64,000 nucleotides of DNA from contig NZ_JAKFYQ010000001.1 of NCBI RefSeq assembly GCF_021533835.1, positions 1,990,427-2,054,426 on the forward strand, written 5' to 3'. Under the pieces are notes generated by a model that was not told the origin of the DNA, made no database searches, and saw only the letters and a program-made list of their open reading frames with translations. The stretch comes from Synechococcus sp. Nb3U1 (GTDB lineage Bacteria; Cyanobacteriota; Cyanobacteriia; Thermostichales; Thermostichaceae). Shown piece after piece: positions 5,944 through 60,307 of the stretch. Position numbers and translations under genes: made by a program. Numbering within the stretch: position 1 is the stretch's first letter; each line of letters opens with the position of its first letter.

Positions 5944-8043
5944 TTATGAGCTACGGTCCAGCGGCTGGGGTTCTGGCTCCGGATTGAGGCTGTCCAACTC
6001 TGGCAACGCCGTTTGCGCCAGCGGGACGGAGTCCTTGTGGCCCAATGCCTCCAGGGCTGTTTTGGCCGGCTGAAACTGGGGATCCAGTTCCAGGCAGCGT
6101 TGCCAACTGGCTTGGGCCGGTGCTATCTGCCCCATTTTCTGTTGAACGGATCCCAGGGTATGCCAAAAGCCAGGGCGACTTGGCTCCAGTTGGATGGCTT
6201 GTTCGGCATCCGCTAGGGCGGCCTCCAGTTTCCCTAGCTTCAGAGCTTCCCAGGCGCGGTTGTTCAGGGCCACGGCATCTTCGGGGGTGAGCTGCAAAAC
6301 CCGCGAGTAAGCCTGCACCGCTTTTTCCGGATCCCCCAGATCGCTGTAGCTCAGTCCCAGGGCAAACCAGCCGAGGGGATCCCGGTCGTTGAGGCGGATC
6401 ATCTGCTGGCAGGCACTGCGAGCTTGTTCCAACCGCCCCAGGCGGCGCAAACTGGTCACTTGGCCAAACCAGCAGGCAAAGCTACGGGAACGTTGCTGCA
6501 ACAGACGCTCAAAATGATCCAGGCTGGCCTCGTATTGGCCCAAGTCCTGTCGGGCCAGAGCTAGAGCATAGCGGGCTGGAAAATGTTCGGGATCAATCTT
6601 CAGTGCCTCCTCGAAGTGGATGCAGGCTTCCTTCAGGTAGCCCAATTGCTGAAAGGCCATGCCACGGGCATACCAACTTTTCAGGTTGTCGGCATCGTAG
6701 CGCAGAGCTCGTTCTAGGGCATCGCTGGCCAACCGATATTGCCCCAGCCGCAGCAAGGCAACTCCTAGATTGTGCAGGGTGATTGGATCCCGTCGCCGCA
6801 GCCGCAAAGAGCGCTTGTAGCACTCGATGGCCGAGCGCAGCCGGTTGCACCGCAGCAGAGCATTGCCTTGAAAACGCCAAACCCGCGCACTTTTGGGGTT
6901 GATCTTCAAAACCCGAGCAAAACTGGCCGCCGCCGAACTGGGCCGACGCAAGCGGCGCAGCACGATCCCACGGGCCAACCAAGTGCGCGGCTGTTTCGGG
7001 CTGTAGCGCAGGGCCTTGTTGAGGCTATTCAGGGCTAGCTTCGGTCGCTTTAGTTGCAGCAGCCGAATGCCACGGTTGTGCCAGGCCAGCGCATCTTCCG
7101 GGTTGCTCTCCAGCACCTTGTCGTAGTTGACGACCGCTGACTTATATTGCCCTAAGCGCCCCAAAATCAAGGCCAGACTCAGGCGGGTCACCTCGTCGTA
7201 AGGGTTGATGGTCAGGGATCCGTTGTAGCTGTCCACCGCCTCCCGGTAGCGGGCCAACCGCACCAGCACATCCCCCCGCCGGCTCCAGGCCAAGGCGAAG
7301 TTGGGATCCATATTCAGGGCACGGTCGTAGGCGGCCAAAGCCTCCGTCAGGTTACCCCGTTTGCGCCAGTCTTCCCCCCGCTCAAATTGGATATCGGCGC
7401 TATTCCACTGAAATAAGCGCTGAATAAATTGCAGAATGGCGATCTGGCGGATCCCTTCTTCGGGGGTGACGGAGGGGGTTTCCCCGCTGGCAATGCGGAC
7501 AATCGCCGCTTGGATGGCCCGCAAAAAGCCCTGAAAGCCCCGCACCTCCTCATCTTCCACCGGCTCGGAGCGGCGATATTGCAGCCGGAACCGTTGCAGA
7601 TCCCCCGGCGGGGTAAAGCTGGGATCCAAAAAATGCATCAACTGCAGGGCGCGGTACTCGAACAGCACTGCATCCTCTTCTGAGCCGGTAAAGTCGAACA
7701 GTTCTGATTGTTCGATCGGTCGGGGCAAATCCACCGGCGTGTGGAGCAGAGCCAGCAACCGCTGATTTTGCCGGGCTGGGGCATGGGGAAAGCCACTGTA
7801 GAGCTCATCTTTCGGCCAGGGATCCCCGACAAATTCGGGCGAGACCACCAGCGCGATCCAGCGGCACTGTTCGATCGCCAGTTGCAGCTCCAGCCTGCGG
7901 TCATCCCCCGGCTGCAACATCCACTGGTCAAACCAAACTTTGAAGCCCTCTCGATCCAGCCGCTCCGCCAGTTGCCGCGCCCAACGAGCTTGAGCCCGGT
8001 GGTAGCGCAAAAAGAGATCGAATTTGTAATGTTCTGGAGACAT
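5944..8043 (-). CDS. TIR domain protein with about 13 TPR repeats
   Basis: Residues 5-140 form a TIR domain: FDLFLRYHR is box 1, KVWFDQWMLQPGD follows, then ALVVSPEFVGDPWPKDEL. In that last block W76 and E80 make the WxxxE pattern whose glutamate is catalytic in NAD-cleaving TIR enzymes. After a linker, residues about 216-658 contain roughly thirteen 34-residue tetratricopeptide repeats of the form LGxxLxxLGxYxxAxxxYxxALxxxP. The tail is Pro/Glu-rich. No signal peptide or membrane segment is seen, so it should be cytoplasmic. TIR fused to TPR suggests a TPR sensing or scaffolding module controlling an NADase or a TIR assembly; this is inference from domain families. The gene is monocistronic, with no recognisable defence genes beside it. 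Confidence 0.9.
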   Translation of the reverse strand: MSPEHYKFDLFLRYHRAQARWARQLAERLDREGFKVWFDQWMLQPGDDRRLELQLAIEQCRWIALVVSPEFVGDPWPKDELYSGFPHAPARQNQRLLALLHTPVDLPRPIEQSELFDFTGSEEDAVLFEYRALQLMHFLDPSFTPPGDLQRFRLQYRRSEPVEDEEVRGFQGFLRAIQAAIVRIASGETPSVTPEEGIRQIAILQFIQRLFQWNSADIQFERGEDWRKRGNLTEALAAYDRALNMDPNFALAWSRRGDVLVRLARYREAVDSYNGSLTINPYDEVTRLSLALILGRLGQYKSAVVNYDKVLESNPEDALAWHNRGIRLLQLKRPKLALNSLNKALRYSPKQPRTWLARGIVLRRLRRPSSAAASFARVLKINPKSARVWRFQGNALLRCNRLRSAIECYKRSLRLRRRDPITLHNLGVALLRLGQYRLASDALERALRYDADNLKSWYARGMAFQQLGYLKEACIHFEEALKIDPEHFPARYALALARQDLGQYEASLDHFERLLQQRSRSFACWFGQVTSLRRLGRLEQARSACQQMIRLNDRDPLGWFALGLSYSDLGDPEKAVQAYSRVLQLTPEDAVALNNRAWEALKLGKLEAALADAEQAIQLEPSRPGFWHTLGSVQQKMGQIAPAQASWQRCLELDPQFQPAKTALEALGHKDSVPLAQTALPELDSLNPEPEPQPLDRSS

Positions 8044-34191: not shown

Positions 34192-34887
34192 CTAGAGCCC
34201 ATCGGGATCCAATCCCATCTGACGCAGGCGTTCTGCCAAGCGATCCGCCCGTTCTCGCTCTTGTTCTGCTCGTTGCCGCTCTTGTTCCGCCTGTTGTCGG
34301 GCCTGTGTCGCTTGCTCTAGGGCTTCTGAGAAGTTGATAAACGGTTGCCCATCAGGATAGGTGAGCTGAAGTTCGCCATCGACCAAATCGAAAAAGATAC
34401 CCAAGTAAGGGCTACGCCATCCCTGCATGGGCTGGATCTCTACTAAATTCTCTCCCTGGCGGATAAAGCCTTCTAACGTGCCCTGGTCTGGATCGTAGAT
34501 GTAATACTCTTCTACCCCGTAGCGTTCGTAGAAGCGCAGCTTTTCCAGCATTTGGCTGAAACGATTGCCGGGGGAGAGAATCTCAAAGACTACCTGAGGA
34601 GGGATCCCTTCTTCTCGCCACTGCAAGTAAGAACCGCGATCCCCTTTCGGGCGCCCAAACACCACCATCACATCCGGCGCCATGCGAATGTTGGGATCCC
34701 CTTTGACGGGGTACCAAAGCAAATCCCCTGCAACAAAAACATCAGGGCGATGGCGCATCCAATAGTCAATTCCTTCTTTAACCCGGACAATCCAACGGAA
34801 TTGCTTGGTGTTATCGGCCATCGGTTGACCGTCGCTTTCGGGGTAAAGAATACCGTCATCTATGGCACGAGGAAGCTGCTGTACCAT
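34192..34887 (-). CDS. Uma2 family endonuclease-like protein (DUF820)
   Basis: The 231-residue protein belongs to the DUF820/Uma2 family, a PD-(D/E)XK-fold group expanded hugely in cyanobacteria. The motif residues are in IRMAPDVMVVFG (Asp), QVVFEILSPGN (the Glu of the core) and VEEYYIYDPDQGTLEGFIR. A C-terminal coiled coil rich in repeated QAEQER-type units (residues 195-225) is common in this family. The role is unknown; nuclease activity is presumed from fold only. It is monocistronic and divergent from the VOC gene. Confidence 0.9.
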   Translation of the reverse strand: MVQQLPRAIDDGILYPESDGQPMADNTKQFRWIVRVKEGIDYWMRHRPDVFVAGDLLWYPVKGDPNIRMAPDVMVVFGRPKGDRGSYLQWREEGIPPQVVFEILSPGNRFSQMLEKLRFYERYGVEEYYIYDPDQGTLEGFIRQGENLVEIQPMQGWRSPYLGIFFDLVDGELQLTYPDGQPFINFSEALEQATQARQQAEQERQRAEQERERADRLAERLRQMGLDPDGL

Positions 34888-35012: not shown

Positions 35013-35657
35013 ATGTTGACCTACCATCATCTGCACACTGCCCTTTGGGTTACGGATTTGGCCAGGGCAGAACATTTTTACGGCACGGTGCTCGGGATTC
35101 CGAAAGCGGAGCGTTTACCCTTTGATTTTCCAGGAGCTTGGTATCAGGTGGGTGCCTCGCAAATTCATTTGATTGTGGCAGAGGATCCCATGAATCAAGG
35201 TCATACAGCCGCAAAGTGGGGGCGTAATCCCCATCTGGCTTTGGGGGTAGATAATCTGGATGTGGTGAAAACTCGCCTTGTGCAATTAGGCTATGAAGTC
35301 CAGATGAGTGCTTCTGGTCGGGCGGCTTTGTTTGTACGGGATCCGGATGGAAATGTGATAGAGCTAAGCTCCGCTAACGCGAAAGAGCTAAGCTCCGCTA
35401 ACGCGAAAGAGCTAAGCTCCGCTAACGCGAAAGAGCTAAGCTCCGCTAACGCGAAAGAGCTAAGCTCCGCTAACGCGAAAGAGCTAAGCTCCGCTAACGC
35501 GAAAGAGCTAAGCTCCGCTAACGCGAAAGAGCTAAGCTCCGCTAACGCGAAAGAGCTAAGCTCCGCTAACGCGAAAGAGCTAAGCTCCGCTAACGCGAAA
35601 GAGCTAAGCTCCGCTAACGCGAAAGAGCTAAGCTCCGCTAACGCGAAAGAGCTATGA
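35013..35657 (+). CDS. VOC/glyoxalase family protein extended by 12 octapeptide repeats
   Basis: Residues 1-118 are a VOC (vicinal oxygen chelate) fold: MLTYHHLHTALWVTDLARAE, VGASQIHLIVAED, HLALGVDNLDVVKTRLVQLGY, and ALFVRDPDGNVIEL, with His and Glu candidates for metal binding. VOC proteins usually end just after the DPDGNxIEL strand. Here that end continues as ELSSANAK repeated twelve times with no change, then EL and stop. The array is 12 identical 24-bp units (35361-35648) inserted within GAGCTA, with the original GAGCTA and TGA kept at the end, so the stop was not lost. The stop overlaps the nnr start by ATGA. The enzymatic reaction is unknown; the tail is probably unstructured. Confidence 0.88.
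   Translation: MLTYHHLHTALWVTDLARAEHFYGTVLGIPKAERLPFDFPGAWYQVGASQIHLIVAEDPMNQGHTAAKWGRNPHLALGVDNLDVVKTRLVQLGYEVQMSASGRAALFVRDPDGNVIELSSANAKELSSANAKELSSANAKELSSANAKELSSANAKELSSANAKELSSANAKELSSANAKELSSANAKELSSANAKELSSANAKELSSANAKEL
35361..35654 (+). repeat. tandem repeat, 12 identical 24-bp units plus 6 bp
   Basis: Each unit starts GAGCTAAGCTC (an odd palindrome) and ends CGCTAACGCGAAA. All units are identical and in frame (24 = 8 codons). Both strands stay open: plus gives ELSSANAK, minus gives ELSSFALA. There are no spacers, so it is not a CRISPR. Perfect identity implies recent expansion or active homogenisation. It sits directly before the nnr start codon. Confidence 0.97.
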
Positions 35658-37249
35658 GCCACCCTTTCTGGAGGCATTCCATTCCAAAGACACAGGAAGA
35701 AGGTGTCTCTTCATCCAGAATTGATCCTGCCACCGAATTGGTCAGTTCTGAGCAGATGCGGCAAGTGGAGGAGCGCCTTTTTGCTGCCGGGATGCCCGTT
35801 GCGGCTCTGATGGAAAAGGTGGGGCTGGCGATTTTCGCCCAATTACAAAGGGATTTTCCGCAGGCCCATCGGGTTGGGATCCTCTGTGGGACGGGGCACA
35901 ACGGCGGCGATGGGTTGGTGGTGGGTCGGGAACTGCTACTGTCCCAAAAAACTGTAAAAGTTTGGCTGGGCAAGCCGGATCTGAAGCCACTGACGGCAGA
36001 TCATGCCCGCTACCTCAAGGCTTTGGGGGCCGAGTTTGTCACAGATATTGGGGAGTTGGCAGATTGTGACTTGCTCATCGATGCTCTTTTCGGGATTGGT
36101 CTGAATCGGCAGTTGGCGGATCCCTGGGTGGGGGCGGTGGGGTGGGCTAACTCCAGCGGGATCCCGATTCTTAGCCTCGACTTGCCTTCGGGCCTTAACG
36201 ATCAAACGGGGCAGATCTGGGGCTGCTGTACACGGGCAACTCGCACCTATGCTCTGGGCCTGTGGAAGCGCGGGTTATGGCAGGAGGCAGCTTTGCCTTG
36301 GGTGGGGCAGTTGCATCGCATCGAGTTTGGCATCCCGGGCTGGGCCTTGATAAAGCCAGAGGGATCCCCGAATATCCCCCAGTTGTTGCTGCAGCCTTGG
36401 TCTCACTTCCCGCCGGCTCCCCCTCTGGATACCCACAAATATCGCCAGGGATCCCTGTTGATCGTGGCCGGTTCGGCGGCCTATGCGGGGGCATCTGTGT
36501 TGGCGGGGTTGGGGGCGCGCGGGAGTGGGGCGGGAATGGTGACAATGGCGGTGCCAACTGAGTTGAAACCCCTGATCCATACTGTTTTGCCGGAGGTTTT
36601 GGTGCATGCCTGGGAAGGGATCCCCTCTTTGCCGCCGGTCTCAGAAAAGCCCTTTCAGGCGGTGGCACTGGGGCCAGGTTTGGGAGAAACCCGTTTGCCT
36701 CTGCTGGATGTCCTATTGCGGGATTGGACGGGGATCCCGTGGGTGGTCGATGCAGATGGGCTGAATGGATTGGCGCAGCTAGGGGTGGATCACTTGCGAC
36801 AGCATCGGATTCAGGCAATTTTGACTCCTCACCTGGGGGAGTTTCGACGCCTGTTTCCAGGGATCCCCTTAGACGATCGGATTGAGGCAGCTCAAAGGGC
36901 GGCGACCCGAAGTGGGGCAGTGGTGGTGTTGAAGGGATCCCGAACGGTGATCGCGGCCCCTAGTGGCCGGTGTTGGCTCAATCCGGCCAGTACCCCGGCT
37001 TTGGCCCGTGGTGGCAGTGGTGATGTGTTGACGGGGTTAATCGGGGGGTTGTTGGCCCGCTGGGGTGGACAGGGATCGCTCATAGACGAATCGATCCTGC
37101 TCAGTTGTGCTTGCGCGGGAGTGTGGTGGCATGGCCAGACGGCTTTACAACTGGTGGAAGAACGCGGTCTAACGGGGGTAGATCCAGCTCGGTTAGCGGA
37201 GCATTTGCCCCAGGCGCTGCAAACTCTCCAACAGGAGCAAGCAGGTTAG
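35654..37249 (+). CDS. nnr: bifunctional NAD(P)H-hydrate epimerase / ADP-dependent NAD(P)H-hydrate dehydratase
   Basis: Nnr repairs damaged NAD(P)H hydrates: the N-terminal domain (residues 25-235) epimerises R and S forms, and the C-terminal domain (250-525) dehydrates the S form using ADP. N-terminal marks are SEQMRQVEERLFAAGMPVAALMEKVG, GILCGTGHNGGDGLVVGREL and LPSGLNDQTG. C-terminal marks are HKYRQGSLLIVAGSAAYAGA, LGPGLG, VVDADGLNGL, ILTPHLGEFRRL, VVLKGSRTVIAAP and ARGGSGDVLTGLIGGLLA. At 531 residues it is full length. The start overlaps the VOC stop (ATGA), so its translation may depend on ribosomes passing the 24-bp repeat array. Confidence 0.96.
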   Translation: MSHPFWRHSIPKTQEEGVSSSRIDPATELVSSEQMRQVEERLFAAGMPVAALMEKVGLAIFAQLQRDFPQAHRVGILCGTGHNGGDGLVVGRELLLSQKTVKVWLGKPDLKPLTADHARYLKALGAEFVTDIGELADCDLLIDALFGIGLNRQLADPWVGAVGWANSSGIPILSLDLPSGLNDQTGQIWGCCTRATRTYALGLWKRGLWQEAALPWVGQLHRIEFGIPGWALIKPEGSPNIPQLLLQPWSHFPPAPPLDTHKYRQGSLLIVAGSAAYAGASVLAGLGARGSGAGMVTMAVPTELKPLIHTVLPEVLVHAWEGIPSLPPVSEKPFQAVALGPGLGETRLPLLDVLLRDWTGIPWVVDADGLNGLAQLGVDHLRQHRIQAILTPHLGEFRRLFPGIPLDDRIEAAQRAATRSGAVVVLKGSRTVIAAPSGRCWLNPASTPALARGGSGDVLTGLIGGLLARWGGQGSLIDESILLSCACAGVWWHGQTALQLVEERGLTGVDPARLAEHLPQALQTLQQEQAG

Positions 37250-58503: not shown

Positions 58504-60307
58504 GCTGTGCTAGCTTGCCTTTGCCAGAAATAGAGAGCACCCAAGGTAACCGTAAAGTAAAGCAGGTGTGCTCAGCTTCGCTGCTCAGGTGAATGCTCCC
58601 TTGCAGCAGGTTCATCCGCTTTTGAACGAGGGCCAGCCCTAACCCTGTCCCCCCTTGTCGCCAGGGATCCGGATTGGGCACACGATAAAACTTCTCGAAT
58701 ACCCGCTCTTGCTCTTGTGGGGGGATGGTCACGCCGGTGTTGAGGATCTGGATCTCGAGGTGATCCGGATGGTTATGGACACTCAGGCTGATCAGTTGGT
58801 CAGTCGGGGTAAATTTGTGGGCATTTTGTAGCAATTCCGCCAGCACCGCGCGCAGCACCTCTGGCAAAGTGCAGATGGGGGGTAAATCGGGAGGATACTC
58901 CAGGCTAAAGAGCTGATTGTAGCTACGGGCCACTTCTGCGAATGGATCTGTGATTGGCGGCAACCACTCTTTCAAATCTAGCCAGTGGGGTTGCTGCGAT
59001 CCGATCAACACCTCCAGCCGCTGTAACTCCAGCAAATCCTCCACCAACTTGATTTCCCGCTCACATTCTCTGTTCAAAACATCCAGGTAACGGGCCACCT
59101 TTTCGGGGTCGGGGGGTTTGGCCACCCCGTTGCTGGGCAGTAGCGCCGAGCTGAGCAAACGGATCCCCATTTTGATGCTGGAAAGGGGGGTGCGCAGCTC
59201 GTGGGACACGGTGCTGAGAAAATCGTTTTTGAGGTGATCTAGCCGCTGTAACTCCTGCACCTGTCGGTCCAGTTGGGCGGTGCGGGCCTGTACTTTTTCT
59301 TCCAGAGTGTGGTTGAGCTCCTGAATTTGCTGGAACAGCTCCGCCTGCTGAATAGCAATCGAGAGGTGATCCGCCAAGGTCAAGATCAGATTGTGACTGG
59401 TGGCCAACCAGCCGGAACGGGCGGTTTTCAGTTGTAGGCACAAGCTACCCCAAAGGGTAGGGGGGGCGGATAAGGACTCCGTCCCGCTGACGCGACCGGA
59501 GCTTCCGCTGCCACCGTAGAGAGGTGCCAACAGCCAGCTACCGGGATAGGCTTTGGCCATAGAGGGGATGCAGATCCAGTCTTTAGCCTGGCTGACGGTT
59601 TCAAGGGTCACTACTTTCCCCTGCTTCAGGAGCTGCGCCATCCGGTTGTCAGAATCGGGAATCGAGCAGCCCAAGTAGCCATCTGCTTGGGTTTGATATT
59701 CGGAGATGACGCACCACTCTTGTTGCTGCGGTTGATAGCGGCTAATGCTGACCCGATCTGCCTCCAGCAAGTGACAAATTTCCCGAGTGGCCACCGAAAA
59801 GATTTTATCCAACTCCAATGAGGTGCGAATGGCTCGGATAACACGGTTCAGAGCCTGTTCACGAGCCGCTTGCTGGCGCACATTGAGTAGGTTTTGGCGG
59901 GCCTTGAGCAGGTGGTGAATTCGTTGTCGCATCACCGGCCAGTGGATGGGTTTGGTGATGTAGTCGCTTGCCCCAGCGGCAAAAGCTTTGTCTACAGAAG
60001 CTTGATCCTCCAGGGAAGTGATCATCAAACAGGGTAGATCCGCATCCAACACCTGTAACTTCTGGCAACACTCAAATCCATCCATCCCCGGCATAAGGGC
60101 ATCCAACAGGACGATTTGCGGCTGGCTCTGGGAGTAGAGGACGAGGGCCTGTTCACCTTCTTCTGCTTCCACAACTCGATAGCCTTCGTGAACCAACAAA
60201 TGCATCAAGTACACCCGTGTCGAGGGGTCATCATCCACCAGCAGCACAGTCGGAGATGAAAAGTTCGTCAATCGATCATCAGAGGTGTGGATGGGAGGGG
60301 GCTGCAC
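58493..60307 (-). CDS. response regulator-GAF-histidine kinase hybrid
   Basis: The 604-residue protein has an N-terminal receiver (residues 20-135: TVLLVDDDPSTRVYL, phosphoacceptor Asp in IVLLDALMPGMDG, Lys in SDYITKPIHW), then a GAF domain (about 150-330, LELDKIFSVATREICHLLEADRVSISRY), a coiled coil, and a histidine kinase: HisKA H-box FLSTVSHELRTPLSSIKMG, N-box LLQNAHKFTP and G-box GGTGLGLALVQKRMNLL. The receiver at the front with a kinase behind suggests it is a downstream member of a phosphorelay. There are no membrane segments, so it is cytoplasmic. The signal is unknown and no partner gene adjoins. Confidence 0.95.
   Translation of the reverse strand: MQPPPIHTSDDRLTNFSSPTVLLVDDDPSTRVYLMHLLVHEGYRVVEAEEGEQALVLYSQSQPQIVLLDALMPGMDGFECCQKLQVLDADLPCLMITSLEDQASVDKAFAAGASDYITKPIHWPVMRQRIHHLLKARQNLLNVRQQAAREQALNRVIRAIRTSLELDKIFSVATREICHLLEADRVSISRYQPQQQEWCVISEYQTQADGYLGCSIPDSDNRMAQLLKQGKVVTLETVSQAKDWICIPSMAKAYPGSWLLAPLYGGSGSSGRVSGTESLSAPPTLWGSLCLQLKTARSGWLATSHNLILTLADHLSIAIQQAELFQQIQELNHTLEEKVQARTAQLDRQVQELQRLDHLKNDFLSTVSHELRTPLSSIKMGIRLLSSALLPSNGVAKPPDPEKVARYLDVLNRECEREIKLVEDLLELQRLEVLIGSQQPHWLDLKEWLPPITDPFAEVARSYNQLFSLEYPPDLPPICTLPEVLRAVLAELLQNAHKFTPTDQLISLSVHNHPDHLEIQILNTGVTIPPQEQERVFEKFYRVPNPDPWRQGGTGLGLALVQKRMNLLQGSIHLSSEAEHTCFTLRLPWVLSISGKGKLAQPKA

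Follow-up and report, generated by a model that had tools for sequence, protein, structure and literature searches.

SDRs of Nostoc and relatives, reportedly described by Elhai and colleagues in 2008 (Genome Res 18:1484, a work listed among the references of PMC3116915), are said to be dispersed sequences of 21 to 27 nt whose hairpin is kept by compensatory changes and for which recent mobility was inferred. An RNA intermediate was reportedly proposed for them in the same work. By that description, the element that we analyzed here is SDR-like on three points: it is a 24-nt dispersed repeat in many copies, its hairpins covary, and orthologous sites differ in its presence or absence. It differs from SDRs in belonging to another cyanobacterial lineage (the thermophilic Synechococcus A/B/T1 group), in being itself repeated in long tandem arrays, in having many in-frame coding copies, and in that no reverse transcriptase turned up in the six genus genomes.

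Other described repeats resemble the element in part. RPEs of Rickettsia are palindromic repeats of ~150 bp that lie in frame within ordinary protein genes (PMC10969869, PMC3733652). We likewise found an in-frame palindromic insert in ordinary genes, as seen from a 24-bp insert in nnr of one relative (G003) and from the 29 of 57 single copies that lie in confidently coding frames. However, RPEs measure roughly 100 to 150 bp, whereas the element here is 24 nt long and also occurs in tandem arrays. REPs and REPINs are hairpin repeats of 20 to 40 nt that are present in many copies, are mainly extragenic, carry a GTAG or CGTC tag, and are linked to Y1-type RAYT transposases (PMC3116915, PMC3733652). 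The family described here also consists of hairpin repeats in many copies, and Y1 genes are present in the same genomes. In contrast to REPs and REPINs, its alignments contain no invariant GTAG or terminal CGTC, many of its copies lie in genes, and the three Nb3U1 Y1 copies contain stops. It is also unlike MITEs, since there is no target duplication at the 24-bp insertions and no end-to-end inverted repeat. Coding minisatellites, or VNTRs, share with it perfect in-frame units, a unit length divisible by 3, and a copy number that varies among relatives, and we found perfect tandem units and relatives that differ in copy number at the locus studied here; in contrast to minisatellites, the repeated unit is dispersed, structured, and apparently mobile in its own right. 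As a whole, the array at this locus is best explained by a dispersed 24-nt double-hairpin element, one member of which was amplified in tandem here; we assign this reading a probability of about 0.8.

The array lies in a window of 64,000 nt, the whole stretch of Synechococcus sp. Nb3U1 DNA from which the analysis started. Within it, a VOC (glyoxalase-fold) gene of 214 aa (ORF at positions 35013 to 35657, forward strand) contains 12 mismatch-free tandem copies of the 24-nt unit GAGCTAAGCTCCGCTAACGCGAAA, followed by GAGCTATGA. The copies occupy positions 35361 to 35648 on the same strand, and the family model described below matched every one of them. TRF gave 12.3 copies with a 100% match and a score of 590, which made this the top-scoring array in the window, far above chance. 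Its reading frame is open and encodes (ELSSANAK)12-EL. A partial 13th unit, GAGCTA (positions 35649 to 35654, forward strand), continues into the TGA stop; the sister species G005 has GAGCCATGA here. The left edge of the array, which matches this partial unit, is host coding sequence for a conserved E-L-S, and the encoding of these residues by the left nine bases of the first unit counts against a clear insertion boundary. The first unit also overlaps the codons GAT GGA AAT GTG ATA GAG CTA AGC (35346 to 35369, forward strand), which are synonymously conserved genus-wide.

PF00903 matched residues 8 to 118 of the VOC protein (E value, 5.9e-10), and alignments with solved VOC structures extend to residue 119. 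Because Pfam and the structures place the end of the domain at residue ~118 to 121, the array is a C-terminal extension beyond the folded domain. The VOC stop overlaps by ATGA the start of nnr (positions 35654 to 37249, forward strand), which encodes a bifunctional NAD(P)H-hydrate dehydratase/epimerase of 531 aa (PF01256, PF03853, and TIGR00196/00197). The initial annotation had placed 12 perfect units, read as (ELSSANAK)12, past the usual VOC end, and the sequence, TRF, and the domain limit all confirm this. It had also noted the terminal GAGCTA-TGA and the ATGA shared with the nnr start, and both are present.

Each unit of the array consists of two small hairpins, GAGC-TAA-GCTC and CGC-TAAC-GCG, and a final AAA. 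The GAGCTAAGCTC at the start of the unit, earlier called a palindrome, is really a 4-3-4 hairpin (GAGC-TAA-GCTC) and no strict DNA palindrome. The array had further been described as open on both strands; this is true of one frame per strand, but the other two frames of each strand have a stop in every unit. An antisense gene over the array was rejected, because the antisense ORF follows from the open reverse frame of the unit and its protein is unsupported. We also rejected a CRISPR reading, since the units are contiguous and without spacers. Phase switching through copy number is impossible, as 24 is divisible by 3. Searching with the exact 24-mer at up to three mismatches returned the array locus as the sole site in the Nb3U1 genome and none in viral contigs. 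The array units had no match in Rfam, and GATAGAGCTAAGC, taken as a dispersed motif, showed no clear excess beyond the VOC-nnr locus.

The relatives of the unit came to light through another gene. A tandem-repeat scan of sampled Nb3U1 DNA revealed a second, near-perfect 24-bp array, in frame in hrcA; its hairpin GGCCTCCGGCC led to dispersed copies with CGCTRRCGCGA, and this 3' half is also present in the VOC unit. The unit is absent from the rest of the genome as an exact sequence but present as relatives with other stem sequences. The initial annotation, whose reading of the array as a recent expansion is supported, had missed its membership in a dispersed double-hairpin family with other arrays. 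The plan of the family is a 4-3-4 hairpin, a 3-4-3 hairpin, and 3 nt that are mostly A-rich, with GGACTCCGTCC-CGCTGACGCG-A as the commonest form.

We found that the 3'-half motif CGCTRRCGCGA alone occurred at 37 nonarray sites in 2.46 Mb, compared with 6 in the control. A perfect 4-bp stem 1 was present at 21 of these sites, and at least three of the four pairs were present at 32. When the 3' arms of 36 distinct units were permuted, the mean number of perfect stems was 5.2 (maximum, 12), compared with the 20 observed. Seven variants of stem 1 were seen (GGAC, GGCC, TTGC, TGCC, GAAC, CGCC, and GAGC), the last of which, GAGC/GCTC, is that of the VOC unit. Stem 2 also covaried among units picked by the 5' half alone (CGC/GCG, CAC/GTG, CCC/GGG, and GGC/GCC). 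An alignment of 33 units, part of which were chosen for structure, had 96% paired cells; because of this partial selection, we relied on the arm permutation rather than on the alignment. Across the whole Nb3U1 genome, the consensus pattern gave 90 matches, compared with 1 in the reversed control. A count of double hairpins restricted by loop gave 44 compared with 2. The latter count is informative, whereas the control for all double hairpins is not, because reversing a sequence preserves that count.

Copies of the family abound in each of the six genus genomes, and hardly any occur outside the genus. A covariance model, with scoring of up to 150 candidates per genome, found from at least 58 to at least 159 copies per genome in the six. 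With strict filters, and among the matches listed, there were 19 to 76 copies per genome within the genus; two other genera of the same taxonomic family had 2 and 7, and each of 108 further cyanobacteria had 0 to 3. When the VOC, HrcA, and ABC units were left out of its construction, a second model recovered the ABC units at 33.5 bits and the VOC units at 22.4 bits (E value of 0.01 in 124 kb); the HrcA unit reached 10.5 bits and was not convincingly recovered. We assigned the HrcA unit as a putative member by its architecture and stem 1 alone. The VOC unit, whose divergent stem 1 counts against easy assignment, is a member of this dispersed and covarying family, in which compensatory changes have kept both stems. 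Single dispersed copies also lie in the window, namely GGACTCCGTCCCGCTGACGCGACC at positions 59474 to 59497 of the forward strand (family model, 39.2 bits) and a copy of the GGACTCCGTCCCGCTGGCGCAA form at positions 6011 to 6034 of the reverse strand (28.9 bits). In G003, runs of GACGCGAGGACGCGA with an 8-bp period start with the 3' motif of the family (C1:36117, C10:122793, C13:15056, and C75:5424) and are possibly a derived repeat.

Nb3U1 has five tandem arrays of the family: the 12 units in VOC, 9 units with two interspersed variants at C2:625105-625318, 7 units in hrcA, 6 units in an ABC-transporter ATPase gene, and 4 units at C2:716024-716117. We read 2.46 Mb of the genome, and a pattern search covered the other ~1 Mb, including the arrays of 9 and 4 units. 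In the 2.46 Mb, the three family arrays located there were the only arrays with at least four copies, at least 90%, and units longer than 12 bp. The hrcA array (L136:11864-12045; G000:C1, about 231863-232045) comprises about 7.6 copies and encodes MTGLRPMD in frame in the heat-shock repressor; it has about two units in G002 and none in G005 and A/B-type relatives. The ABC array (L258:6854-7000, reverse strand) consists of six perfect in-frame 24-bp units that encode GLRPTNVN between the Walker A and signature motifs. Of the other genomes of the genus, G004, a single contig, has 14 units at C1:2805417-2805739, and several arrays occur in G003 and G005; at least seven G003 contigs begin with a family array. 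Because arrays recur in Nb3U1 and in other genomes of the genus, tandem amplification looks like a property of the element. Each array tends toward its own stem 1.

Many single copies lie inside genes. By heuristic gene calls, which were used throughout, 42 of 57 were within ORFs at a coding density of 0.87, and a codon-usage test left 29 of the 57 as confidently coding. Copies on the strand opposite to the gene mostly read as RVSGTES-like peptides (18 of 24; 13 of 18 confident ones), and those on the same strand mostly read as DSVPLTR-like peptides (12 of 18; 7 of 11 confident ones). A third frame is used by the three readable arrays, which encode ELSSANAK, GLRPMDMT, and GLRPTNVN. The frame preference of single copies in each orientation is not random and may reflect target preference or selection.

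As a test of mobility, the flanks of family copies were aligned between species. In three orthologous comparisons, the filled and empty sites differed by exactly 24 bp, this difference was the element, and there was no target duplication. One of these sites is in nnr, where G003 has an in-frame insertion at L119:4368-4391, GCCGGTTGCCGA[TCGCGACAGCGGGACGGAGTCCTT]GAAACCCT. Flank alignment placed the matching empty site between positions 36645 and 36646 of the window, and the site is also empty in G004 and other members of the genus. Gain is the simple reading here, because one of six species is filled. At L136:5179, Nb3U1 is filled and G005 is empty. The third site, upstream of VOC, is filled in G003 and G004 and empty in Nb3U1. 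Dispersal would proceed without target-site duplication.

We rejected a reverse transcriptase as the mobilizer because none was found in the six genomes, and dispersal through reverse transcription by a resident enzyme is unlikely. Y1-type transposases are present in all six genomes, and a resident single-strand transposase of this type is a possible helper of dispersal. Insertion without target duplication would be consistent with such an enzyme working in trans on a hairpin in single-stranded form. In a check of flanks in Nb3U1, two of its three Y1 copies had no family member within ~1.5 kb. All three (G000:C1:421387, C1:2141051, and C2:176235) contain an internal TAG; G001 has more than a dozen intact-looking Y1-type copies.

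We then compared the orthologous VOC tails, using one genome for each of the six species. VOC and nnr are adjacent in all six; among the other loci fetched, no such pair was seen within the 1.5 to 3 kb read. Outside the genus, VOC proteins mostly end 3 to 8 residues past the conserved IEL. All six species of the genus keep a tail of at least 6 residues past this motif. Its length is one unit in G001 (ELSAIGATEP), G003 (ELSSISATQP), and G004 (ELSSISAT), two units in G002 and G005 (ELSSASAK followed by ELSSANAK or ELSSADAK), and 12 units in Nb3U1. From these counts in three, two, and one species, we concluded that the expansion is recent, as had been proposed; the repeat number, which had been suggested to vary between strains, differs between these species. 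The last expansion or homogenization is also dated as recent by the 12 identical units in an otherwise divergent gene, with synonymous differences at 46% of comparable VOC codons among Nb3U1, G002, and G005. The one-unit state of the three relatives may be ordinary coding sequence and not a decayed element. In another cyanobacterium (L020 of G015), a 12-bp repeat has expanded independently, as (FNAE)3, at the corresponding place in the VOC C terminus.

The tails also bear on whether the array could be a private coding minisatellite, in which a short direct repeat of the VOC tail (GAGC...GAGC, 24 bp apart) slipped and the likeness to sequences elsewhere is due to chance. The 1, 2, and 12 units at an orthologous place are consistent with this, the GAGC copies are already 24 bp apart in the one-unit relative G001, and the (FNAE)3 of L020 suggests that VOC C termini tolerate repeats. 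However, the VOC unit has the 11-base core of the family, CGCTAACGCGA, together with a perfect stem 1 in register, and most tandem 24-bp arrays in the genus belong to the double-hairpin family. We consider a private minisatellite improbable. An assembly artifact is the least credible of the alternatives. The Nb3U1 genome, from Nakabusa hot spring, has 3,487,976 bases in 4 contigs, the largest of 2,215,988, and is a SPAdes hybrid assembly of Illumina reads of up to 151 bp and Nanopore R9.4.1 reads (PMC9119104). Because the assembly is of this hybrid kind, the units can fairly safely be taken as identical, and the count of 12 depends on the long reads. In favor of an artifact, the array exceeds the Illumina read length and the assembler was a hybrid one. 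Against it, two independent assemblies show two-unit VOC tails, similar long arrays are present in the single-contig genome G004 (3,046,682 bp), and the at least seven G003 contigs that start with such arrays are what real arrays that break short-read assemblies would produce. An artifact is disfavored for the existence of the array, and only the exact count rests on one hybrid assembly.

Other alternatives concern what the units do at the VOC-nnr junction. They might act in cis on nnr, as an element of RNA or DNA, through translation coupling, mRNA stability, or protein binding, with copy number tuning nnr. Conservation of the DNA argues for this. In Nb3U1, G002, and G005, 20 consecutive codons of the tail lack a synonymous change, compared with 46% elsewhere in VOC. 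The longest such run in 520 nnr columns was 8, and the 20-codon run was matched in 0 of 2,000 shuffles. The VOC units differ between species at 0 to 1 of 24 positions, compared with 4 to 7 of 24 for four other shared copies of the family. The rare codons ATA (3% of its codon family) and CTA (8%) are conserved, and the block GAT GGR AAT GTG ATA GAG CTA AGC is nearly constant across the genus. In addition, the VOC-nnr adjacency is confined to the genus among the loci read, and two units are predicted to be able to form one long hairpin. However, the stability of two-unit tails did not significantly exceed that of synonymous versions (P of about 0.14), and the extreme RNA-stability value of the 12-unit array is due to repetition itself. 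The nnr start is identical with 1, 2, or 12 units, and Rfam offers no match for such an element. Nor is the spacing from the units to nnr conserved, because in G004 the VOC gene stops before nnr begins and in G002 a further 13 residues separate the units from the nnr start. On balance, we regard a cis-acting role as unlikely. Selection for the repeat peptide, as a helical or disordered C-terminal tail useful to the VOC protein, is still more doubtful. AlphaFold2 gave residues 134 to 209 as one helix, and the retention of the tail in all six species would suit such a role, but the confidence of the helix is low (pLDDT of about 50 to 56), the other arrays encode the unrelated GLRPTNVN and GLRPMDMT in unrelated proteins, and amino acid selection cannot account for the synonymous conservation. 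The in-frame unit, the unmoved nnr start, and the low-confidence helix fit a neutral passenger. Against pure neutrality, neutral drift does not explain the conservation of the tail DNA among the three species.

Under the preferred reading, tandem amplification of a dispersed element, the element would have been inserted at the end of the VOC gene in an ancestor of the genus, and the 8-residue tail of three relatives would be a one-unit remnant. In the lineage of Nb3U1 the unit would then have been duplicated, and slipped-strand replication or unequal exchange would have expanded and homogenized it to 12 copies in Nb3U1. The hairpins and the GAGCTA repeat at both edges of the array may have helped this expansion, and hairpin-assisted slippage is probably the route of tandem amplification. 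Every change in copy number stays in frame because 24 is 3 × 8 and one forward frame of the unit is open. Each added unit would leave the nnr start codon untouched and lengthen the protein, past its folded domain, by eight residues (ELSSANAK) that are probably harmless.

The best reading of the family is a small mobile palindromic element that is SDR-like, lies in frame like Rickettsia RPEs, and amplifies in tandem. More tentatively, and with the odds against it, we suggest that the hot-spring Synechococcus (Thermostichus-type) lineage may carry in it one of the smallest known mobile elements compatible with proteins. This double hairpin of 24 nt would insert exactly, with neither target duplication nor a reverse transcriptase, would prefer tolerated reading frames of genes, and would then amplify in tandem, with the VOC-nnr copy taken up as a cis element. 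If true, this cis use would explain the DNA-level conservation of that copy. A family with filled and empty sites makes the movement of elements too short for known transposon ends directly testable. Genes could also gain repeated peptide tails cheaply in this way, from a structured insert of 24 nt that always keeps the frame and multiplies in tandem. The arrays could mark strains for typing in hot-spring mats, and they may account for contig breaks in short-read assemblies of the hot-spring Synechococcus group.

Apart from the family, imperfect 21-bp repeats are present at positions 34244 to 34296 of the window, at the coiled-coil C terminus of a Uma2-family gene. Repeats with this 21-bp period, or one like it, recur at L231:10220-10306 and L167:18294-18414, in other parts of the genome and in a relative.
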